Assembly: GCF_025971925.1 (NCBI RefSeq)
Contig: NZ_JAPDHV010000002.1
Span: forward strand, 554,003-618,002
DNA: 64,000 nt
Direction: 5' to 3'
Source of the DNA: Chryseobacterium oryctis
Lineage (GTDB): Bacteria > Bacteroidota > Bacteroidia > Flavobacteriales > Weeksellaceae
Each line of letters starts with the position of its first letter. Position 1 is the stretch's first letter. The notes under the pieces are model-generated. The model was not told where the DNA came from and ran no database searches. It saw only the letters and a list, made by a program, of their open reading frames with translations. Positions 3,956-30,235 of the stretch are shown here, piece by piece. The position numbers and the translations under genes are program-made.

Positions 3956-4765
3956 ATGAAATTAGCACATCTTTTTTTAGGAATAGGAGCGGTTGCTCTA
4001 TCGGTTGCAGCTTGTACTACGAACCCGATTACGGGTAGATCTTCTCTGCAATTAGCAAATAATTCTGAGATATTGACAATGTCTTCTCAAGAATATAAAA
4101 CTACATTGTCTAAAGGTAAAGTGATAACCGGAACGGCAGACGCAAAAAGAGTAGTAAGTGTTGGAAGCAGAATAAAAGCAGCAGCAGAAAAATATTATCA
4201 AAGTATAGGCAGATCAGCAGATTTAGCAAATTATAACTGGGAATTTAATCTTTTACAGAGTGATGAGCTGAATGCTTGGTGTATGCCAGGTGGTAAAGTA
4301 GCTGTTTACACAGGGATTTTGCCAACAACTAAAAACGATAATGGGCTTGCTGTGGTGATGGGGCATGAGGTTTCTCATGCTTTAGCAGGACATGGTAACG
4401 AAAGAATTTCTCAGGCAATGGTTGCACAATATGGTGGGGCTATTTTGGGAGGAACAATTTCTAATGCTCAATGGGCTGGTGTTTTTGAAAAAGTTTATCC
4501 TATTGGTTCTCAGGTTGCATTATTAAAATATGGTAGAAATCAGGAGTCTGAAGCAGATAAAATGGGACTATATTTAATGGGAATGGCAGGATACGACCCA
4601 AGAGAGGCAATCCCTTTCTGGAACAGAATGGAGTCAGCTTCTAAAGGAGCAAAACAGCCGGAATTCTTATCAACTCACCCGAATCCTGAGACAAGAATTT
4701 CAGATATTAATAAAGATTTACCTAAAGCGCTAGAATATTATAAGGCTGCAGGAGGGAAACTATAA
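3956..4765 (+). CDS. M48-family metallopeptidase lipoprotein (LoiP/YcaL-like)
   Basis: 269 residues. The signal peptide ends at Cys20 (SVAACT), followed by TTNPITGR, a hallmark of this lipoprotein subfamily. The zinc site HEVSH is at 137-141 and the third ligand lies in ESEAD at about 197-201, so the protease should be active. Relatives are membrane-anchored periplasmic proteases that trim or degrade misfolded outer-membrane proteins. The gene is followed by its own terminator, so it appears monocistronic. The enzyme class is secure; the targets are not known. Confidence 0.92.
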   Translation: MKLAHLFLGIGAVALSVAACTTNPITGRSSLQLANNSEILTMSSQEYKTTLSKGKVITGTADAKRVVSVGSRIKAAAEKYYQSIGRSADLANYNWEFNLLQSDELNAWCMPGGKVAVYTGILPTTKNDNGLAVVMGHEVSHALAGHGNERISQAMVAQYGGAILGGTISNAQWAGVFEKVYPIGSQVALLKYGRNQESEADKMGLYLMGMAGYDPREAIPFWNRMESASKGAKQPEFLSTHPNPETRISDINKDLPKALEYYKAAGGKL

Positions 4766-4789
4766 ATTAGGATTTTAATATTAGATATG

Positions 4790-4829
4790 GCCTTATTAAA
4801 TTTTCACTAAATTTGATAAGGCTTTTTAT
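4790..4829 (+). terminator. Rho-independent terminator after the M48 gene
   Basis: GCCTTATTAAATTT (4790-4803) pairs with AAATTTGATAAGGC near 4809-4822 with one G-U, followed by a T-run. Confidence 0.8.
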
Positions 4830-4855
4830 TTTACCACTTAAAATAATCACATATT

Positions 4856-5173
4856 ATGAAAGGTTTATCGCTTACAGGACTTGTACTTCTTGCTATATCT
4901 ATATTGTTGTTTTATTTAACGACAAATGGTTTTACGGCTAAAGAGATTGGTTTGCCCCATATTATGGGAATCATGGGAGGAATTGGTATTGGACTTATCA
5001 TTGGCGGAATGGTTGGGTATATAAGTAAAGGAAGCGCTATGAAAGCAGAACAAAAGAAAAAGGAGTTTAAGCAATTGCAAAAAGATAAAGTTGAGCTGGA
5101 AAAGAAGGCCGCAGAAATTGCAAAACGTGAAACCGAAATACAGTCTCAACAAAATCAAAATCCTCAAATCTGA
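4856..5173 (+). CDS. Small membrane protein with C-terminal coiled coil
   Basis: A 105-residue protein I cannot assign to a named family. Two hydrophobic segments (about 5-22 and 30-55, the latter Gly/Ile-rich) are followed by a highly charged stretch (about 60-100: KAEQKKKEF, KVELEKKAAEI) that should form a cytoplasmic helix or coiled coil. A terminator precedes it and another overlaps its stop, so it is a single-gene unit. The reading frame is well formed and bounded by terminators, which supports it as real. Confidence 0.65.
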   Translation: MKGLSLTGLVLLAISILLFYLTTNGFTAKEIGLPHIMGIMGGIGIGLIIGGMVGYISKGSAMKAEQKKKEFKQLQKDKVELEKKAAEIAKRETEIQSQQNQNPQI

Positions 5174-5189
5174 TGACTTGAGGATTTTT
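5157..5189. terminator. Terminator overlapping the end of the small membrane protein gene
   Basis: AAAATCCTCAA (5157-5167) pairs perfectly with TTGAGGATTTT (5178-5188), followed by a T-run on the plus strand. It may also stop minus-strand transcripts coming from the outer membrane protein gene. Confidence 0.75.
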
Positions 5190-5216
5190 CTTAGTTGTTA
5201 TTTTTCGAATAATTAA

Positions 5217-5834
5217 TTAAAATTTATAACCCACACCTACCATAAATAAATTAGGTCTGTTGTCATATCTAATTTCTTGCTCACTTCCAGCAACAGTATT
5301 TATGAATTTTCTTGAATCTTTGCTAAACGCACCTTCATATCTTGCATTAAGAATAAGTTTTTTGATTTCAAATTGGGCTCCGAACTGATAACCTACTGTG
5401 AAATTATCTCTGGAGTTTTCTTTAAAATCATTATAAGTATCTTCTTTGCTTAGATTGTAACTTGCAACCGGTCCTACAAAAGCACTTAAAGTATTTCCCC
5501 AGATATTATATCCTAAAAGAACCGGCAAATCCATACGATTGCTTTTTATATCAAATGTTGTTTCGCTTGTTGTAAATTCATTCTTAAAATGTGTATAATA
5601 CAATTCCGGCATTACATAAAATGAACCGGGTAATTGTACTTTTAATGAAAGACCTACATTGAATCCAGCATTGTTTTTTCCGCTACCTTCAACTGCTTCA
5701 TTTACTGTTCCTTTAATGTTTTTCCAAGAAGGTGAACCAGTAGGAAAGATTAAGTTTGCTTTTCCTGCCAAAGAAATCTGTGCATAAGCAAATAAAGAGA
5801 ACCCTATTAATGCTATACTAAATACCTTTTTCAT
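5217..5834 (-). CDS. Outer membrane beta-barrel protein (porin-like)
   Basis: 205 residues. The signal peptide is about 18 residues long with cleavage after AYA and before QISLAGKA. The rest alternates polar and hydrophobic residues with aromatic strand ends and finishes in GVGYKF, a C-terminal aromatic typical of barrel proteins. This fits the small PorT/OmpW-like barrel families of Bacteroidota. It overlaps the upstream mlaF-like gene by 17 bases, so it is probably translationally coupled and may act with the lipid transporter. That link is inferred from position only. Confidence 0.75.
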   Translation of the reverse strand: MKKVFSIALIGFSLFAYAQISLAGKANLIFPTGSPSWKNIKGTVNEAVEGSGKNNAGFNVGLSLKVQLPGSFYVMPELYYTHFKNEFTTSETTFDIKSNRMDLPVLLGYNIWGNTLSAFVGPVASYNLSKEDTYNDFKENSRDNFTVGYQFGAQFEIKKLILNARYEGAFSKDSRKFINTVAGSEQEIRYDNRPNLFMVGVGYKF

Positions 5835-6633
5835 TATTATCTATTTTTGTTATTGTATTATCAATAGTTTTGTTATTTTCAAGCAAATATTCTCGAAGCT
5901 CTTTGAATAACTCTGATGAATAAACGAAGTCTATTAGATTTTTATTGCCTGCCGTAATCAGAATATCCTTATTCCCTTCCCATTCTTTAATTCCTAATCT
6001 TAGGTAAACAATCTTTTCGCCAATCGTCATTACAGAGTTCATGTCATGGGTGTTGATGATTGTTGTTGTGTTATATTCTTTTGTAATTTCAAGTAATAAA
6101 TCGTCGATTACATTAGAAGTATATGGGTCAAGGCCTGAGTTTGGCTCGTCACAGAAAAGATATTTTGGGTTGTTTACGATAGCTCGGGCAATAGCAACAC
6201 GTTTCTGCATTCCTCCTGAAATTTCTGAAGGGAATTTTTTGTTGGCTTTATCTAAATGTACTCTTCCGATAACTTCAAAAACTCTTCTTTTCTTTTCTCT
6301 AAAAGTGAGATTGGTGAACATATCGAGAGGAAACATGATGTTTTCTTCCACCGTCAAAGAATCAAACAGTGCACTTCCTTGAAATACGGTTCCGATTTCT
6401 GAACGAAGGTGTTGTTTTTCTTCTCGAGTCATAATATTGATGTCTCTTCCATCAAAAAGGATTTCACCTGATGAAGGTTGATAAACATTTAATAAACTTT
6501 TTAAAAAAACGGTTTTTCCTGAACCACTTTGCCCAATTATCAAGTTTACTTTTCCTTTCTCAAAAGTTGTTGAAATGCCTTTAAGAACTTCAACTTCGTC
6601 AAAACTTTTTTTAAGATTTTTTACCTCAATCAT
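5818..6633 (-). CDS. mlaF: ABC transporter ATP-binding protein, MlaF type
   Basis: 271 residues from MIEVKNL at 6633; the longer frame would run into mlaE. Walker A GQSGSGKT is at 34-41, the ABC signature SGGMQKR near 140, then Walker B ending in LFCDEP and the H-loop in NTHDM. The GGM-type signature and the GxxFQGSALFDSLTVEEN Q-loop region are typical of ATPases for retrograde phospholipid transport. Its ATG overlaps the stop codon of the permease gene by one base. It is predicted to power phospholipid movement between the membranes; the MCE partner is likely the gene at 19721. Confidence 0.9.
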   Translation of the reverse strand: MIEVKNLKKSFDEVEVLKGISTTFEKGKVNLIIGQSGSGKTVFLKSLLNVYQPSSGEILFDGRDINIMTREEKQHLRSEIGTVFQGSALFDSLTVEENIMFPLDMFTNLTFREKKRRVFEVIGRVHLDKANKKFPSEISGGMQKRVAIARAIVNNPKYLFCDEPNSGLDPYTSNVIDDLLLEITKEYNTTTIINTHDMNSVMTIGEKIVYLRLGIKEWEGNKDILITAGNKNLIDFVYSSELFKELREYLLENNKTIDNTITKIDNNEKGI

Positions 6634-7385
6634 TAGCTTAATATTAATTGGGTTAATATTAATTCGGAAATAATAATAAATACCATTGTCCAAACCACAG
6701 CTTGTGTACTTGCTCTACCAACTTCGAGAGAACCTCCTTTTACATTGTATCCGAAATATGAAGGGACTGTGGCAATAATAAATGCAAAGACGGCCGTTTT
6801 AATAAATGCGTAATAAATAAAAAGATTAGGCATATACATTTGAATACCTGTTATATAGTCGTTGGTCGTCCAGTTTCCTGTTAAGATTCCGGCAATGTAG
6901 CCTCCCCAAATACCGAATACAATACTAATGGCAATAAGTAGCGGATTAAAAATAATACAGGCTATGATTTTAGGAAAAACTAAAAAATTTTGAGAGTTTA
7001 CACCCATAATATCCAGCGCATCAATCTGTTCGGAAACTCTCATTGTTCCGATACTTGAAGCAATATATGAACCTACTTTTCCGGCTAAAATCAGACTGAT
7101 AATAGTGGGTGCAAATTCTAAAATTAGAACCGCTTTAGTTGCATAGCCTACAAATGCAGGAGGAATAGGAAAGGAAGAAGCATCGAAGTTGTTAAACATC
7201 TGAATGGCAACTACTGCTCCAACAAATATAGATGTGAAAATTACCAACCCAAATGAGTTGACTCCTAAATCATTAATTTCTCTCATTAATAGTTTCCAGA
7301 ATACTCCCATTTTCTGAGGTTTCTGGATAGATTTACCTAGAAGGAGGATGTATTCTCCGACTGCTGTAAAAAACTTTCTTAACAT
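6633..7385 (-). CDS. mlaE: ABC transporter permease, MlaE type
   Basis: A 250-residue polytopic protein of standard MlaE length. It has a GLVIFTSIFVGAVVAIQ membrane segment, the conserved LAGKVGSYIASSIGTMRVSEQIDALDIM-like cytoplasmic loop with E-x-L-A-P/T elements, and a C-terminal pair of helices. It is first in a three-gene minus-strand operon with mlaF (one-base overlap) and an outer membrane barrel gene. The predicted role is the inner-membrane channel of the MCE lipid transporter. Confidence 0.9.
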   Translation of the reverse strand: MLRKFFTAVGEYILLLGKSIQKPQKMGVFWKLLMREINDLGVNSFGLVIFTSIFVGAVVAIQMFNNFDASSFPIPPAFVGYATKAVLILEFAPTIISLILAGKVGSYIASSIGTMRVSEQIDALDIMGVNSQNFLVFPKIIACIIFNPLLIAISIVFGIWGGYIAGILTGNWTTNDYITGIQMYMPNLFIYYAFIKTAVFAFIIATVPSYFGYNVKGGSLEVGRASTQAVVWTMVFIIISELILTQLILS

Positions 7386-22966: not shown

Positions 22967-23788
22967 ATGAGGAGTATTCTGGCTTCGTTTTTCAGATTTG
23001 TTTTAAGTTTTAATTTCTTTAAAAAGAAATATTTTGCATTTCATAAATATATTTTCAGTTCTTATCGGCTGTTTAAGGGGGTAAATAAAGATGTTGTTTA
23101 TAGAAACTCAATCAAACTTAATCTGAATCTTGAAGACTGGATTCAGCAACAGATTTATTTTCTTGGAGATTACGAAAAAAATGAAATAGACTTTTTGTAT
23201 TCAAGTTTAAAAAAAGATGATGTTTTTATTGACATCGGAGGAAATATAGGTTTGTTTTCTTTAAATGCCTCTACAATCATTGGAGATAAAGGGAAAGTAT
23301 ATTCCTTTGAAGCTTTTAAGCCTAATTTTATTCAATTTCAAAATCATATTTCCATTAATAATTTTCAGAATATTCATTTAGAGCATTTGGCTGTTGCGGA
23401 CAAAAAAGGATTTATTGAAATTTTGTACAATGATGACTACAATAATGTCGGCATGGCTTCTTCTTATCTTGAAAACTACACTTCAAAAGAAAAAGTAGAG
23501 AGTACAAGTCTGGATGAATATGTTTCAGAAAAACAAATTTTAAAAATTGATTTGATAAAAATTGATATTGAAGGTGGAGAATATTCTGCCCTGAAAGGAA
23601 TGAGTAGTGTTTTAGAAAATTTAAGACCTAAAGTATTAATAGAAATAAATAATATTGCTCTTAAAAGCTCCAATCATAGTGAAGAAGAATTAATATCATT
23701 ATTTACTGAAAAAGGGTATAAAAGAACAAAAATATTAAGTAGAAATGAAAATTCTTATAATGCTGTTTTTGAATTTGACGATAAATAA
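22967..23788 (+). CDS. FkbM family methyltransferase
   Basis: 273 residues. The SAM-binding region VFIDIGGNIGLFSLNAS is near 85-101, followed by KVYSFEAFKPN (acidic loop) and IDLIKIDIEGGEYSALKG, the diagnostic FkbM segment. Members O-methylate sugars or polyketides. The gene lies directly before a small glycan cluster, separated by one conserved non-glycan gene, so methylation of a surface sugar is a reasonable inference. A basic, aromatic N-terminus (RSILASFFRF) could hold it at the membrane. Confidence 0.87.
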   Translation: MRSILASFFRFVLSFNFFKKKYFAFHKYIFSSYRLFKGVNKDVVYRNSIKLNLNLEDWIQQQIYFLGDYEKNEIDFLYSSLKKDDVFIDIGGNIGLFSLNASTIIGDKGKVYSFEAFKPNFIQFQNHISINNFQNIHLEHLAVADKKGFIEILYNDDYNNVGMASSYLENYTSKEKVESTSLDEYVSEKQILKIDLIKIDIEGGEYSALKGMSSVLENLRPKVLIEINNIALKSSNHSEEELISLFTEKGYKRTKILSRNENSYNAVFEFDDK

Positions 23789-23860: not shown

Positions 23861-24349
23861 ATGAAAATTGAAGAATCAAACGTTGTAGAAACGAACGACT
23901 ATAGAGTTATTATATATCCTGCTTCAAGACCTTTTGAAACTAAAGAAGCGAAAGTTATTACCGAAAAATTATTTGATTTCCTGGCAACTTGGGCTGCTCA
24001 CGGTAAACCTCTGTCTTCTTCATTTAAAATTGAGAAAAATCAATTTATCGTTATTTGTGTAGATGAAGAAAAAGAGATGGCTTCAGGATGCAGTATTGAT
24101 GCTTTAGGAAAAGTGATGAGAGAAATTGATGAAGAATATCAGCTTGGTCTTTTTGATAGAATGAAAGCGAGTTTCGTGGAAAATGGAGAAGTAAAAACGC
24201 TTAAACTTATCGATTTCAAATCAAAAATCAGAAATGGAGAGCTCTCAAAAGATATTGAAGTTTTTGATTTTTCTAAAAACACGTATCTTGATTTTTTAAG
24301 TCATTTCCTTTTACCATTTGAAAAAAGCTGGGCAGCTTCTATAAAATAA
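23861..24349 (+). CDS. Conserved Flavobacteriia protein often mislabelled ABC transporter ATPase
   Basis: A 162-residue soluble protein. I recognise the family from IYPASRPF, the TWAAHGKPL segment, FIVICVDEE, GCSIDALGKVMREID and a C-terminal FEKSWAASIK. Databases commonly name it ABC transporter ATPase, but it has no Walker A, signature or Walker B motif, so that name is not supported by the sequence. No signal peptide or membrane segment. It is six bases upstream of the glycosyltransferase gene, yet the family is found in many flavobacteria without such neighbours. Function unknown. Confidence 0.8.
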   Translation: MKIEESNVVETNDYRVIIYPASRPFETKEAKVITEKLFDFLATWAAHGKPLSSSFKIEKNQFIVICVDEEKEMASGCSIDALGKVMREIDEEYQLGLFDRMKASFVENGEVKTLKLIDFKSKIRNGELSKDIEVFDFSKNTYLDFLSHFLLPFEKSWAASIK

Positions 24350-24355
24350 TTTCTT

Positions 24356-25477
24356 TTGAAAATATTGTTTATTTCTTCTTGGTTTCCAAATAAATTGGAA
24401 CTCACAAATGGCAATTTTGTACAGCGTCATGCAGAAGCTGTATCTCTATTGCACGAGGTTGAAGTATTGCATACGATAGGAGACTTCAATCAAAAAGAAG
24501 AATTTGTTTTTGATGACAAAGTGATAAATAATATAAGAACTTTGATTATTTATTACAAAAATTCAAAAAATCCGATTCAGAATTTTATCAGAAGAATGAA
24601 GGCTTATAAGAAGGGTTTTTTACAAATGAAAATGCCTGATGTTGTACATGCAAATGTTCTTCATAACAATATGCTTTTTGCAGTATACCTCAAAAAGAAA
24701 TATAAAATCCCATTTGTTTTGACGGAGCATTGGACGGCTTTACAGAAAGATAATTTATCAAGCACATCAAACAATATTAAAAGGATTGCGAAATATATTG
24801 CAAAAAACGCAAGCTATATTTTGCCGGTAAGCAATAATCTGAAGGAAAGTTTACAGATTTTGGGGGTAAAAACCCCAATGAAAGTTATTTCGAATGTTGT
24901 GGATACTGAAATTTTTGATATTAAATCAAATTCAGAAACTTCTGAAACCATAAAATTTCTTCATGTTTCAAGTCTTATACCTAGAAAACGGCCGAAAGAC
25001 ATCATCACAACTGTTCATTCTTTGTTTAAAAACGGGTATAATGTAAGTTTGGAAATTGGAGGAGACGGAGATACAAATTCATTAAAGAGTTTAGTAAAAT
25101 CTATAAATGCAGAATCATATATTAGGATATTTGATGAAATAAGTTATGAAGAGGTTGCTGAAAAAATGCAAAACTCAGATTATTTTATTCTTTTTAGCGA
25201 AAATGAAACACAAGGTTGTGTGATTTTAGAATCTTACGCTTGTGGAAAGCCTGTAATTTCAACAAAAGTTGGCGGTGCAGCCGAATTTATTATTGCTGGA
25301 CAAGGTATTGGAATTGAGAAGAATAACGTTGAGCAACTTTACAGTACTTTAGAAAAGGTTTGTAAAAAAGAGTACTCTTTTAATGAAAAATTTAAGATTA
25401 GAAAATACATAGTAGACAATTATTCAAGAGAAGCAATTGCAAATCAGTTCACAGAAATATATCAGAAAGTAATATAA
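24356..25477 (+). CDS. Glycosyltransferase family 4 (GT-B fold)
   Basis: 373 residues with a TTG start giving MKILFISSWFPN, the classic beginning of GT4 enzymes. The N-terminal domain has VHANVLHNN and LTEHW; the C-terminal nucleotide-sugar domain has HVSSLIPRKRP, GGDGD and the E-x7-E motif within SENETQGCVILESYACGKPVI. It should add a sugar to a surface glycan or lipid-linked intermediate in the cytoplasm. It abuts the asparagine-synthase-like gene with no gap, and a flippase follows, so the three form one operon. Confidence 0.9.
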   Translation: MKILFISSWFPNKLELTNGNFVQRHAEAVSLLHEVEVLHTIGDFNQKEEFVFDDKVINNIRTLIIYYKNSKNPIQNFIRRMKAYKKGFLQMKMPDVVHANVLHNNMLFAVYLKKKYKIPFVLTEHWTALQKDNLSSTSNNIKRIAKYIAKNASYILPVSNNLKESLQILGVKTPMKVISNVVDTEIFDIKSNSETSETIKFLHVSSLIPRKRPKDIITTVHSLFKNGYNVSLEIGGDGDTNSLKSLVKSINAESYIRIFDEISYEEVAEKMQNSDYFILFSENETQGCVILESYACGKPVISTKVGGAAEFIIAGQGIGIEKNNVEQLYSTLEKVCKKEYSFNEKFKIRKYIVDNYSREAIANQFTEIYQKVI

Positions 25478-27124
25478 ATGACAAAAGGGTTTTCTGTTTT
25501 TATTCATGATAATCAGGTTCAGATTAGTAATAATTTTGAACAGGGAACTTATGATTCAGTTTTTGTAGAAACACCTACCGTTTCTGTTTTAATCGAAGGA
25601 ATTATCCTGAATAAAAAAGATTTACTTAAAAACTCTTCTATAAGTTTTCAGGAATATCTGGTTGATAATTATTTGAAAAATGATTGGAGGGTTTTACAGC
25701 AATTGGAAGGAGAATTCAGAGGATGCATTTGGGATAAGCAAAAGAAAAAAGTTTTAATTTTTACCAATCCAACTTCTACACAAAGGGTATTTTATACCAA
25801 AATAGATCATAAAATTTTTGCTGATTCTGATTTGGTGAGATTAAGTAGAACAATTAAGGAAAACAGTTATTCTTTGTCTCCGGATATGACCTCGATTTAT
25901 CAGTTACTTGCAATCGGGAATCTTTTAGAAAATAGAACTCCTATTGAAAATGTCTATAAAGTTGTAGACTCTCATTTTTTAGAGATTGATTGTGAAGAGA
26001 GAATAATTACTGAAAAAGAATATTTCAATATTTCCGGAATCGAATATTACAATAAAAAAAAAGAAAATGCAGTTGATGATATTCATGAAATATTTACAGA
26101 AGCCGTAAAATGGGAATACGAAAAAGATCTTGAATTTAATACCTCTTCTTTGGCCTTTTTAAGTGGAGGATTGGATAGCAGAATGGCGATGTTATATGCA
26201 ATCCAAAATAAATTTGATATTGGTTGCGCCCTTTGTTTTTCACATTCTGGATATTTTGATGAAAAAATTTCCCGAAAAATAGCCGAAGATTATCAATTGC
26301 ATTACGAGTTTATTCCGTTAGATAATGGCAGTTTTCTGAAAAAAATAGACCAGTTAACCAAAATTTCGGAAGGAACAAGCCTTTATTCGGGAGGTATTCA
26401 TGTGCAATATGCTTTGGATAAGTTGGCTTTTCAGAATTTCTCTATTTTTCATGGTGGACAAATAGGAGACGGAATTTTAGGAGGGTTCAACTCTGAGCCA
26501 ATGAGAAAACCTCCTTCAGAATATAAAATTATAGTAAATCAGGATTTTCTTCCAAAGATTCAGTCTGATTTGAAAAGTATAATGTCAAATTACGAAAGAG
26601 AAGAAGTTTTCTTGTTACAGAATTTGGCTTATAATAGAACTGTTCTTGGCGTTCAGACATTGCAGCCGAGAGGTTATCTTATTTCTCCTTTTATGACAAA
26701 GGATTTTATAAAACTATCTTTAAGCCTTCCTGAGGAGTGGAAATTTAAGCATAAGTTTTATTTAGAATGGCTTTCAAAACACTGTAAAGAAGCAGAAAAG
26801 TATACTTGGGAAAGAACTTTGATGAAACCCAATGCTTATTGGAAAGTAGGATTTGGCGAAAAATATATTAAAAACGGATATTTGTTTTTTTATAATAAGA
26901 TTTTAAAGTCTCCTGAAAAGGCGAGTATGTATCCGTATCAGTATTATTTTGATTCTACACCAGAAATTCAGCAATATTATCAAATTTATTTTAATGAAAA
27001 TATAGGTCGACTGGAAGCTTATCCAGAATTGAGAGATGATGTTATTCAGCTGTTTGCTCAAAAATCATTCTATCACAAATGTCAGGCAATAAATATTTTA
27101 TCTATTTTTAAACTGTATTTTTGA
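25478..27124 (+). CDS. Asparagine-synthase-like protein without the glutaminase cysteine
   Basis: 548 residues. The N-terminal ~180 residues have the layout of a class II glutamine amidotransferase domain (LEGEFRGCIWD, SDSDLVRLS), but the catalytic Cys that normally follows Met1 is absent: the protein begins MTKGFSVF. The C-terminal synthetase domain is intact, with the ATP pyrophosphatase loop SGGLDS at 229-234. It should therefore use ammonia or another amine, not glutamine. Related proteins occur in glycan clusters and in lasso-peptide or antibiotic clusters (amide or lactam formation). Here the neighbours favour amidation of a surface sugar acid. The substrate is inferred. Confidence 0.82.
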   Translation: MTKGFSVFIHDNQVQISNNFEQGTYDSVFVETPTVSVLIEGIILNKKDLLKNSSISFQEYLVDNYLKNDWRVLQQLEGEFRGCIWDKQKKKVLIFTNPTSTQRVFYTKIDHKIFADSDLVRLSRTIKENSYSLSPDMTSIYQLLAIGNLLENRTPIENVYKVVDSHFLEIDCEERIITEKEYFNISGIEYYNKKKENAVDDIHEIFTEAVKWEYEKDLEFNTSSLAFLSGGLDSRMAMLYAIQNKFDIGCALCFSHSGYFDEKISRKIAEDYQLHYEFIPLDNGSFLKKIDQLTKISEGTSLYSGGIHVQYALDKLAFQNFSIFHGGQIGDGILGGFNSEPMRKPPSEYKIIVNQDFLPKIQSDLKSIMSNYEREEVFLLQNLAYNRTVLGVQTLQPRGYLISPFMTKDFIKLSLSLPEEWKFKHKFYLEWLSKHCKEAEKYTWERTLMKPNAYWKVGFGEKYIKNGYLFFYNKILKSPEKASMYPYQYYFDSTPEIQQYYQIYFNENIGRLEAYPELRDDVIQLFAQKSFYHKCQAINILSIFKLYF

Positions 27125-27127
27125 TGA

Positions 27128-28375
27128 ATGAAAGGAGGATTACAGTTTTTAAAGAATTTTTTTAGTAATCAGGGGCAGTATGTTCTTGTCTCTTTGCTAT
27201 TAGGAAAAATCTGTGCTTTTTTATCTTCTCTTTTTATTATAAAACTTTTACCTGAAAATGATTTTGGTGTAATGAGTATTGTGGCTGCGCTTTTTGCGGC
27301 ATTTGCATCATGTACCGGTTTAGGAAGCTATCAAAGTTTATTGAGGTTTGGAGCAGTTGCTGAAAGTGATGTTTTGAAACAAAAACTTTCAAGTTATCTT
27401 TTAATTAAAGGTTTTATTTACCAAATTATTCTTACTGTTATTTTTCTTGGGTGTAGTTTTTTTTACATCAAGAAATATGAAGATATTTTTTGGATTTTTT
27501 TGTTTTTTTCGATTCGTTTTGTTGGGTTTTATTTCTTTTATTTTATCCAGTCTGAGCTTAGAATTAACAATAAAAACAGAGAGTTTGCCAAGGTAAATAA
27601 TGTGGTTAATGTTTTAGGATTGATTATTTTATTAATCCTCACCTACTTTTTTCAGTTGAAAGGTTACTTGATTGCCATTGCTTTAACCCCGTTTTTATCT
27701 CTATTTTGGTTGAAGCTGTATGATATTTCAAAACCGAAACTTCCTTCTTTTTTTGATTCAAAGGAAATTTGGCGATATGCAATTCATACATCGGGAACTA
27801 CAATTCTTTCAGATGCACTATTTTCTGTAGATATAATTCTTTTAGGATTTTTATTGAACGAAAATGCGGTAGCCGGTTATAAAGTAGCTATTCTGATTCC
27901 TTCAAATGTTACTTTTTTGGCGTTGGCTTTCATGCAAAGTGATTTTCCTGTCTTAGCAAAAAATTATACGAATAAAATATTTCTTAAAAATTATATTTCA
28001 GGGTATTATAAATTGTTTATTCCTGTATGTTTGGGGATTTTTGTTGTATGCGCTCCGTTGAGTAAGATGATTCTGAAGTTGCTTTTTAAAGAAATTTATT
28101 CAGATAATTACTTACTTTTCATTGTTTTCATATTTACTTTTCTTATGAATATTTTATTCAGGAATTTATACGGAAATCTATTGTCTGCTGTAGGTAAAAT
28201 GTCATTAAATACTCAATGTTCTCTATTTTCATTAATTCTGTTGATTGTTTTGGCGTTTATTTTGGTTCCACATTTCGGAATTTTAGGAATGGCAATAAGT
28301 CTTTGTGTTACACTGCTTTGTTCGGGATTTATTTTGGCTTACTTCTTTCATAAGTACCTTAAAGAATTAAAATAA
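27128..28375 (+). CDS. Polysaccharide flippase (Wzx/MATE-like)
   Basis: 415 residues with about twelve membrane segments spread over the whole length and short loops, characteristic of oligosaccharide flippases. The N-terminal LVSLLLGKICAFLSSLFIIKLLPENDFGVMSIVAA region matches the polysaccharide biosynthesis (PST) family start. It should move lipid-linked glycan across the inner membrane. The ATG at 27128 is three bases after the upstream stop, so translation is likely coupled. No polymerase or ligase is encoded nearby. Confidence 0.88.
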   Translation: MKGGLQFLKNFFSNQGQYVLVSLLLGKICAFLSSLFIIKLLPENDFGVMSIVAALFAAFASCTGLGSYQSLLRFGAVAESDVLKQKLSSYLLIKGFIYQIILTVIFLGCSFFYIKKYEDIFWIFLFFSIRFVGFYFFYFIQSELRINNKNREFAKVNNVVNVLGLIILLILTYFFQLKGYLIAIALTPFLSLFWLKLYDISKPKLPSFFDSKEIWRYAIHTSGTTILSDALFSVDIILLGFLLNENAVAGYKVAILIPSNVTFLALAFMQSDFPVLAKNYTNKIFLKNYISGYYKLFIPVCLGIFVVCAPLSKMILKLLFKEIYSDNYLLFIVFIFTFLMNILFRNLYGNLLSAVGKMSLNTQCSLFSLILLIVLAFILVPHFGILGMAISLCVTLLCSGFILAYFFHKYLKELK

Positions 28376-28394: not shown

Positions 28395-28898
28395 ATGAAA
28401 AATAATGTTTTCGGATTTTTAATAATTCTTTTTTCGCTTCTAAGTTGTGGAAGCGATGATGATTCTTTACAGAGAATAGACCAGATTTTTAATCTTTATA
28501 TGAAAAATAGCTCAGGACAGGATTTGTTGAATAGTAAGAAAGCAGGTTCTTATACAGCTATTTCGATGAATGATGTAAATGGGACAACAGATGTCGCTCC
28601 GGTTAATTATTCACTTAGAATGACTTCCGATTCCCTCTATTATATTGAATATCTTGCCGGTGCTAAAAGAATTACAATTGATTCAATAAGTCCTGAAGAT
28701 AGAACGTACGAATCTGAGATTGCTTTAAGATTATCAAAACCCGGAATTGGAGATGTTCCTGAAGTGACACAGGATACATTGAAAATTCAATATCATTGGA
28801 CGCCTTCCGTATTCGAAATTTCAAAAGTTTTTTATAACGATGAACTTAAATTTACGAAAGAACCAAATGTTCCGAATGTCGTTACTATCGTAAAATAA
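28395..28898 (+). CDS. Lipoprotein of unknown function
   Basis: 167 residues. The signal peptide ends in a lipobox (FSLLSCGS, Cys near 18) followed by an acidic GSDDD stretch, a common outer-membrane export signal in Bacteroidota. The mature part is rich in Thr and Asp and shows no family I can name (DGxT-like NDVNGTTDVAP, ITIDSISPEDRTYES). It has its own promoter box and lies between the flippase and serS. Probable beta-sheet envelope protein; function unknown. Confidence 0.65.
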   Translation: MKNNVFGFLIILFSLLSCGSDDDSLQRIDQIFNLYMKNSSGQDLLNSKKAGSYTAISMNDVNGTTDVAPVNYSLRMTSDSLYYIEYLAGAKRITIDSISPEDRTYESEIALRLSKPGIGDVPEVTQDTLKIQYHWTPSVFEISKVFYNDELKFTKEPNVPNVVTIVK

Positions 28899-28966: not shown

Positions 28967-30235
28967 ATGTTACAAGTCAATTTTTTGCGCGACAACAAAG
29001 AACGCGTTTTAGAAGGTCTTAAGAAAAGACAATTCAAGAATCTTGAGTTGGTAGACGAGGCTATTGCTACTGATGAAGAAAGAAAAAAAATTCAGTTTGA
29101 ATTAGATTCTCAACTTTCCGAAATCAATAAAATCTCCAAAGAAATTGGGATTTTAATGAAAGAAGGAAAAAAAGAAGAAGCTGAATCTGCAAAATCTAAA
29201 ACTGCACAATATAAAGAGTCGACGTCGGAATTGAAGTCTCAATTAGATGTAAAAGAGAAGACTTTGTTAGACATTTTATACCAAATTCCAAACATTCCGA
29301 ATGAATTGGTTAAAAATGGTGCTTCTGCTGATGATAACGAGATTATTTATCAATCTCATGATGTTGAAGGTTTGGGAGAAGGTGCAATTCCTCATTGGGA
29401 GTTGGCAAAAAAATATAATCTAATCGATTTTGAATTGGGCGTTAAAATTGCAGGTGCTGGTTTCCCTGTTTATTTAGGAAAAGGAGCGAGGTTACAAAGA
29501 GCTTTGGTTCAGTATTTTTTAGATAAAAATGTTGAGAAAGGATATATGGAAGTAAATCCGCCTCACGTTGTAAATGAAGCTTCGGGATATGGAACAGGTC
29601 AATTGCCAGATAAAGAAGGTCAAATGTATCATATTGGTTTAGATGATTTATATTTAATTCCAACAGCTGAAGTTCCTGTTACGAATTTGTATCGTGATGT
29701 TTTATTTGAGGAGAAAGATTTACCGATTAAAAACACTGCTTTTTCTCAATGTTACAGAAGAGAAGCGGGAAGTTATGGTGCTCATGTAAGAGGATTAAAC
29801 CGTCTTCACCAATTTGAAAAAGTAGAAATCGTAAGAATTGAAAAACCTGAAAATTCTTATGCTGTTTTGGAGGAAATGGTAGAGCATATTAAAGAAATTT
29901 TAACCGACCTAGAACTTCCGTATAGAGTTTTAAGACTTTGTGGAGGAGATACAGGTTTTGCATCTGCAATGACGTATGATTTTGAGGTTTGGAGTGCTGC
30001 TCAGGAAAAATGGTTAGAAGTAAGCTCAGTTTCTAATTTTGAAACTTTCCAGGCAAACAGATTGAAGTGTCGCTATAAAGCTGACGGAAAATCTCAGCTA
30101 GTTCATACATTAAACGGTTCTGCCATGGCATTACCAAGAATTATGGCTGCTTTGCTTGAAAATAATCAAACCGAAGAAGGAATTAAGCTTCCTAAAAAAA
30201 TTGCTGAATATGCAAGATTTAATTTGATTAACTAA
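28967..30235 (+). CDS. serS: Serine-tRNA ligase
   Basis: 422 residues, standard length. The N-terminal antiparallel coiled-coil arm (about 25-105: FELDSQLSEINKISKEI, ESTSELKSQLDVKEK) that grips the tRNA long variable arm is followed by a class II core. Core motifs are TAEVPVTNLY, FSQCYRREAGSYG (motif 2), and the C-terminal NGSAMALPRIMAALLENNQ (motif 3). It charges tRNA-Ser and tRNA-Sec. It is followed by a long perfect hairpin terminator. Confidence 0.98.
   Translation: MLQVNFLRDNKERVLEGLKKRQFKNLELVDEAIATDEERKKIQFELDSQLSEINKISKEIGILMKEGKKEEAESAKSKTAQYKESTSELKSQLDVKEKTLLDILYQIPNIPNELVKNGASADDNEIIYQSHDVEGLGEGAIPHWELAKKYNLIDFELGVKIAGAGFPVYLGKGARLQRALVQYFLDKNVEKGYMEVNPPHVVNEASGYGTGQLPDKEGQMYHIGLDDLYLIPTAEVPVTNLYRDVLFEEKDLPIKNTAFSQCYRREAGSYGAHVRGLNRLHQFEKVEIVRIEKPENSYAVLEEMVEHIKEILTDLELPYRVLRLCGGDTGFASAMTYDFEVWSAAQEKWLEVSSVSNFETFQANRLKCRYKADGKSQLVHTLNGSAMALPRIMAALLENNQTEEGIKLPKKIAEYARFNLIN

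Follow-up and report, generated by a model that had tools for sequence, protein, structure and literature searches.

What does an enzyme of the asparagine synthetase type do in a glycan locus once it has lost the cysteine by which it would draw ammonia from glutamine? Chryseobacterium oryctis raises this question in a window of 64,000 nucleotides, the whole stretch of DNA that we analysed (assembly GCF_025971925.1, contig NZ_JAPDHV010000002.1, positions 554,003 to 618,002). Three genes follow one another there on the plus strand: a GT4-type glycosyltransferase (GT; 24356..25477, TTG start; PF00534, 89.5 bits against a cut-off of 26.4, and PF13439, 59.7 bits), a Cys-less asparagine-synthetase-like protein of 548 amino acids, for which we use the working name ASN (25478..27124, ATG start; PF00733, 25.5 bits, cut-off 21), and a flippase of the MOP/Wzx type (27128..28375; PF01943, 44.7 bits, above the cut-off of 28.2). 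As the preliminary description of this locus had it, and with exactly the coordinates given there, the cluster is compact, with 0 bases between GT and ASN and 3 between ASN and the flippase. We infer, at even chances, that ASN would use ATP to form an amide on a lipid-linked glycan, as a tailoring step that precedes export by the matched flippase.

The active site of the glutaminase half is gone from ASN. A TAA codon stands in the same frame immediately 5' of the ASN ATG and therefore excludes a Cys-containing start further upstream, which would have undone the claim that the cysteine is lost; the N-terminal Cys motif was found in none of 40 homologues, the window's ASN included. In a profile alignment made by hhalign with the genome's own AsnB, the glutamine-binding NGE motif of AsnB is replaced by EGI (ASN residues 40-42, 25595..25603, plus strand), of which E40 is nearly invariant and G41 invariant across an alignment of 33 sequences (A1). 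Because only 39 residues precede EGI in ASN, against 74 before NGE in AsnB, the stretch HRGPD...ERLAIVD is missing from ASN. With both the cysteine and the glutamine-binding motif lost, the view that the enzyme by itself is unable to draw ammonia from glutamine is supported. GATase_7 of Pfam scored 20.8 bits on ASN, under its cut-off of 25, and TIGR01536, the glutamine-hydrolysing asparagine synthetases, reached 58.7 bits against a cut-off of 267.1, Cys and NGE being absent from ASN and the ATP-binding PP loop present. The lasso peptide cyclase model NF033535 gave 39 bits, with a cut-off of 525.

The preliminary description spoke of an enzyme lacking its glutaminase, which is right for the active site and wrong for the domain, as the fold is retained in the predicted model. 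The AlphaFold model of ASN (pLDDT 94.2) had as its nearest folds TsnB9 (Z 26.0), beta-lactam synthetase (25.0) and, tied with the latter, Escherichia coli AsnB (1ct9; VIA-align Z 24.7, model residues 3-548), at a root-mean-square deviation of 3.0-3.5 and with 410-467 residues aligned, nearly the whole length. Since the model matches three AsnB-type folds almost end to end, both ASN domains are predicted to be present, and judging by the model the glutaminase has kept its fold while its active site is gone. A search of PDB sequences with the single ASN protein returned no relative, and the same search with a profile returned one match, TsnB9 (7ylz).

These losses go further than the cysteine, and they would suit an enzyme that uses no ammonia at all. 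In this narrower form of our proposal, which we regard as possible and hold tentatively, ASN would be an amide ligase proper, linking an amine and a carboxylate; it could, for instance, attach a hydroxy acid or an amino acid to an amino sugar. Together with Cys, ASN has lost its glutamine-binding motif and the residues in front of it, and beta-lactam synthetase is among the nearest folds of the model; yet the three fold families are so nearly tied in Z that the fold gives no choice between them. Flavobacterial O-polysaccharides bear amide-linked malic or hydroxyglutaric acid, according to the accessible parts of PMC4052302 and PMC3210612, and a true ligase is possible for this reason, although the polysaccharides in question come from Flavobacterium and Flexibacter, outside this family.

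The synthetase half, in contrast to the glutaminase site, keeps its ATP loop, as had been claimed: the PP loop SGGLDSR (residues 229-235, 26162..26182, plus strand) is invariant in the 33 sequences of A1. Residues 325-337 (HGGQIGDGILGGF; 26450..26488, plus strand) lie opposite AsnB SGEGSDE.FGGY in the hhalign alignment, and D331, opposite AsnB Asp351, is nearly invariant in A1. An Arg follows SGGxDS in all 92 Cys-less rows, which we did not use as evidence because the scan that fetched many of them had sought that motif. For two close pairs of ASN genes dN/dS was 0.106 and 0.079; values of about 0.1 show that purifying selection acts on the gene.

The Cys-less relatives of ASN form with it a coherent group, found in several phyla and often beside a flippase. 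Among 173 genomes of the genus, 12 including its own carry an ASN orthologue at an identity of at least 64%; the copy in G118 is broken, and that in G137 runs into the end of its contig. A further 61 genomes gave matches at only 19-27% identity, which we rejected as orthologues; all nine such proteins taken for the tree start with MCG, two of the nine being AsnB-like proteins of the C. oryctis genome itself, so that where read they are Cys-type relatives. In a draw from the family, ASN occurred in 58 of 296 genomes (E 1e-30), and in a draw from the class in 4 of 395, its own included (profile, 1e-40). Scanning named genomes, we confirmed 149 relatives; the best 80 of them, which we retained, came from the Weeksellaceae genera Chryseobacterium, Kaistella, Epilithonimonas, Cloacibacterium, Empedobacter and Moheibacter and, beyond that family, from Saprospiraceae, Bacteroidales, Ignavibacteriota, Thermotogota, Spirochaetota and Bacillota. 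Thermoplasmatota matches are metagenome-assembled genomes (MAGs) and may be misbinned. In an unrooted tree of 43 rows, one branch (100/99) parts 30 Cys-less from 13 Cys-bearing rows, the placement of one long Cys-less row (G088) being unsure.

Conserved gene order ties this group to glycan export. Of 41 loci, counting that of the window, 37 show GT, ASN and flippase in uninterrupted succession and 2 more have flippase-GT-ASN, which leaves G118, where the cassette is broken, and G137, where it is truncated. GT is present in all 41, split in G118, and with the trio adjacent in 39 loci the three genes are not scattered in relatives, an outcome that would have told against a functional cluster. 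Outside Weeksellaceae, a gene next to ASN encodes a flippase in 24 of 37 loci and a GT4 enzyme in 20, and 13 loci have both; this set includes near-duplicates such as L158 and L159 and leaves out L144 and L162, which are Weeksellaceae-like, and L163, where no ASN reading frame was found. Pfam, run on 49 of 155 immediate neighbours, reported PF01943 in 20/49 and PF00534 in 12/49. In G118 (L066), GT and ASN are each interrupted and the flippase reads through, while near relatives hold intact copies. In five loci from Empedobacter-like genera and a Flavobacteriaceae MAG (L075, L078, L083, L084 and L147), the trio has DUF7033 or polysaccharide-deacetylase proteins nearby, along with a HAD hydrolase.

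One distant neighbourhood suggests another source of nitrogen, namely a separate glutaminase, HisH for instance, that would provide ammonia in trans. In L171 (a Lachnospiraceae MAG; 4248-6867), the ASN homologue comes after genes for WbuX, HisH and HisF2, of another sugar amidation system. WbuX, which we take to be the known client of the HisH/HisF2 pair, sits in the same cluster, and no such genes were seen among the six proteins scanned in the window or, as far as cluster and length can tell, next to the trio in the Weeksellaceae loci read. We therefore consider supply in trans very improbable.

In the genus, the trio occupies a defined slot. Its left border is a small conserved gene (23861..24349), found in 60 of 60 evenly drawn genomes and without a Pfam family above cut-off; its right border is a small lipoprotein-like gene (28395..28898), likewise without a family above cut-off, which adjoins serS in the slot readings. 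The housekeeping gene serS (28967..30235), named from its sequence, is conserved in position, and all three genes lie on the plus strand. We read the slot, from the border gene to the lipoprotein-serS pair, in 71 loci; the even draw of 60 supplied 57 of these, its genomes G021, G151 and G156 having gone unread. The comparison of presence and absence in sister genomes that the preliminary description had called for revealed what that description had missed: slot content varies between species, and the slot is a variable flippase cassette whose alleles are swapped within the genus. The Cys-less ASN was present in 4 of the 57 evenly drawn loci, a Cys-bearing AsnB-like enzyme in 19 and neither in 34. 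By type, 16 loci held GT2-flippase2 with the Cys-bearing enzyme and 14 the same pair without it (G088 among these), 13 held GT-flippase (the flippase split in G016), 7 an inverted flippase with a hexapeptide acetyltransferase, 4 GT-ASN-flippase and 3 GT-flippase with the Cys-bearing enzyme. Across the 71 loci, in which G137, not part of the even draw, was typed as ASN-less only because its contig ends inside ASN, the Cys-bearing enzyme lies beside GT and flippase in 25. It starts with MCGI and carries HRGPDDEG or a near match, and one such enzyme scored 418 bits with TIGR01536, above the cut-off of 267. This comparison of slots across sister species suggests that the enzyme may decorate a surface sugar just before its export.

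G088 (L257:5983-7590) encodes a 535-residue Cys-less AsnB-like protein after GT2 and flippase2 (PF00733, 37.2 bits); as it has no match to the ASN profile, it may be a second Cys-less kind. The inverted MOP flippase and hexapeptide acetyltransferase pair, without GT, was seen in G003, G002, G032, G147, G095, G073 and G033 (L236, L244 and L245 among the loci).

The contents of the slot also bear on a role of the WbpS kind, in which ASN would make a sugar that links type IX secretion cargo to lipopolysaccharide. The best NCBIfam match of ASN is TIGR03108, the family of WbpS, and in Porphyromonas gingivalis wbpS adjoins wzx and wbpE, as described in the available portion of PMC7468200. The match is 63.5 bits, far from the cut-off of 816.9, and the 34 of 57 genus genomes with neither enzyme in the slot speak against such a role, no genome-wide search for wbp and vim genes having been made, an argument tempered by a statement in the same portion of PMC7468200 that WbpS is dispensable for attachment in P. 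gingivalis too. We hold this explanation to be very improbable. Uronate supply was tried as a correlate and rejected as uninformative, PF03721 being present in 171 of 171 genus genomes.

Which of its two neighbours does ASN travel with? We built trees of the 22 loci with the GT and flippase type of the window; these omit G118 (broken cassette), G137 (contig end), G016 (split flippase) and three loci that pair both types with a Cys-bearing enzyme. The flippases of the ten ASN-bearing loci formed one clade (100/99.6). A single clade of the same ten loci was rejected in the case of GT (p-AU 1.6e-34) and also in that of the flanking genes (p-AU 1.6e-5). Gene spacing by itself cannot account for this co-segregation, since GT is about as near to ASN as the flippase is. 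It is the flippase, not GT, that stays with the Cys-less enzyme as its stable partner, a point that the preliminary description had overlooked.

Several observations weigh against an active ASN matched to its flippase. A first tree already existed when the clade test was framed, and distance correlations over the ten loci (ASN-flippase 0.67, ASN-GT 0.64, ASN-serS 0.79) do not single the flippase out. In the second cassette family (trees of 35 rows, omitting G088), loci with and without the Cys-bearing enzyme fall apart in the GT2 tree as in the flippase2 tree (100/100 each), and almost do so for the flanking genes (p-AU 0.013); GT is thus separated from the flippase in only one of two cassette families. 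No flippase was found within three genes in 12 of the 37 distant loci, some of which are on short contigs. In the synthetase half, the counterpart of AsnB Glu348 is not kept, being Q, S, A or H, and Lys450 of ASN, in a region outside the hhalign alignment, is Lys in 34 of 39 rows. Lys450 may correspond to AsnB Lys449. The lack of a conserved Glu348 counterpart and the variation at Lys450 would fit a pseudoenzyme that binds ATP or glycan without catalysis, as a structural partner of the flippase or GT. Such a protein seems unlikely to us, given the invariant PP loop, the nearly invariant counterpart of Asp351, a dN/dS of about 0.1 and the Cys-bearing enzyme that fills the same slot in other species.

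For a tailoring enzyme in a matched cassette, we infer the following course. The three genes would make up one allele of the variable flippase cassette. On the cytoplasmic side, the GT4 enzyme would add a sugar to a lipid-linked glycan, and ASN would use ATP to activate a carboxylate of the lipid-linked intermediate and convert it to an amide; the matched flippase would then export the tailored product. Because the glutaminase half of ASN is dead, the nitrogen would be that of free ammonia or of an amine group carried by a second substrate. Ammonia can replace glutamine for canonical asparagine synthetases and for the AsnB-like PesC, according to the accessible text of PMC13060819.

Known systems resemble parts of this cassette. 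WbpS and WbqG, O-antigen uronic-acid amidotransferases of the TIGR03108 type, are, like ASN, AsnB-like enzymes encoded beside a wzx flippase in glycan loci, and the related WbpS makes a uronamide (both in the available portion of PMC7468200); unlike them, ASN has neither Cys nor NGE and scores far below the TIGR03108 cut-off. Beta-lactam and carbapenam synthetases share with ASN what the model predicts to be a full-length AsnB-type fold. They too are without the N-terminal Cys, which is likewise absent from the glutaminase domain of ASN; they make antibiotics by internal amide closure, whereas ASN lies in a glycan-export cassette. The hydroxyamidotransferase TsnB9, presumably from a natural-product pathway, is the best fold match (467 residues) and the sole PDB match of the profile; it has 12% identity to ASN and, unlike ASN, starts with MCG and has an AsnB-like glutaminase region. 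The slot itself recalls the LFG O-glycosylation loci of Bacteroides, where, in the part of PMC12871550 available, wzx with variable neighbours lies beside a tRNA-synthetase gene. Those loci have metG, many glycosyltransferases and two conserved terminal ones, and the slot of the window has serS, one GT and an optional tailoring enzyme; the order by which LFG loci are defined there, metG then wzx at the start and two conserved glycosyltransferases at the end, is not that of this slot. A literature search, with most subscription journals outside its coverage, found no description of a flippase partnered by an asparagine-synthetase-like protein without the Cys.

A FkbM-type methyltransferase gene (22967..23788, plus strand; TIGR01444, 109.4 bits) had been placed just upstream of the cluster, and a methylated, amidated surface sugar or a small secreted glycoconjugate had been proposed as a candidate product. 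The gene is real, yet the small border gene separates it from GT. It was found upstream in 13 of 28 loci with the GT type of the window and in 0 of 43 with other slot types; methylation is no fixed part of the cassette, and FkbM counts as an optional accessory. A protein of about 380 residues (L218:12999-14126 and 22 further members) is often encoded just ahead of the small border gene; neither Pfam nor NCBIfam gave a match for it at the thresholds applied.

The known uronamides of O-antigens are attributed to WbpS-type enzymes that depend on glutamine; the link between Wzx flippases and a conserved group without the Cys points to a route in which glutamine is not used directly. One genus offers, at one site, a dead-glutaminase enzyme, a Cys-bearing enzyme or none, so a direct test is possible, and the specificity of a flippase for a tailoring step, which is hard to prove, becomes testable on these natural alleles. 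More speculatively, old and widespread glutaminase-dead AsnB-like glycan amide ligases might couple acids with amines on lipid-linked oligosaccharides, the matched Wzx flippase reading the modification and being inherited with the enzyme while the glycosyltransferase is swapped. If so, this genus would carry, in its slot next to serS, a natural library of paired modifications and flippases.

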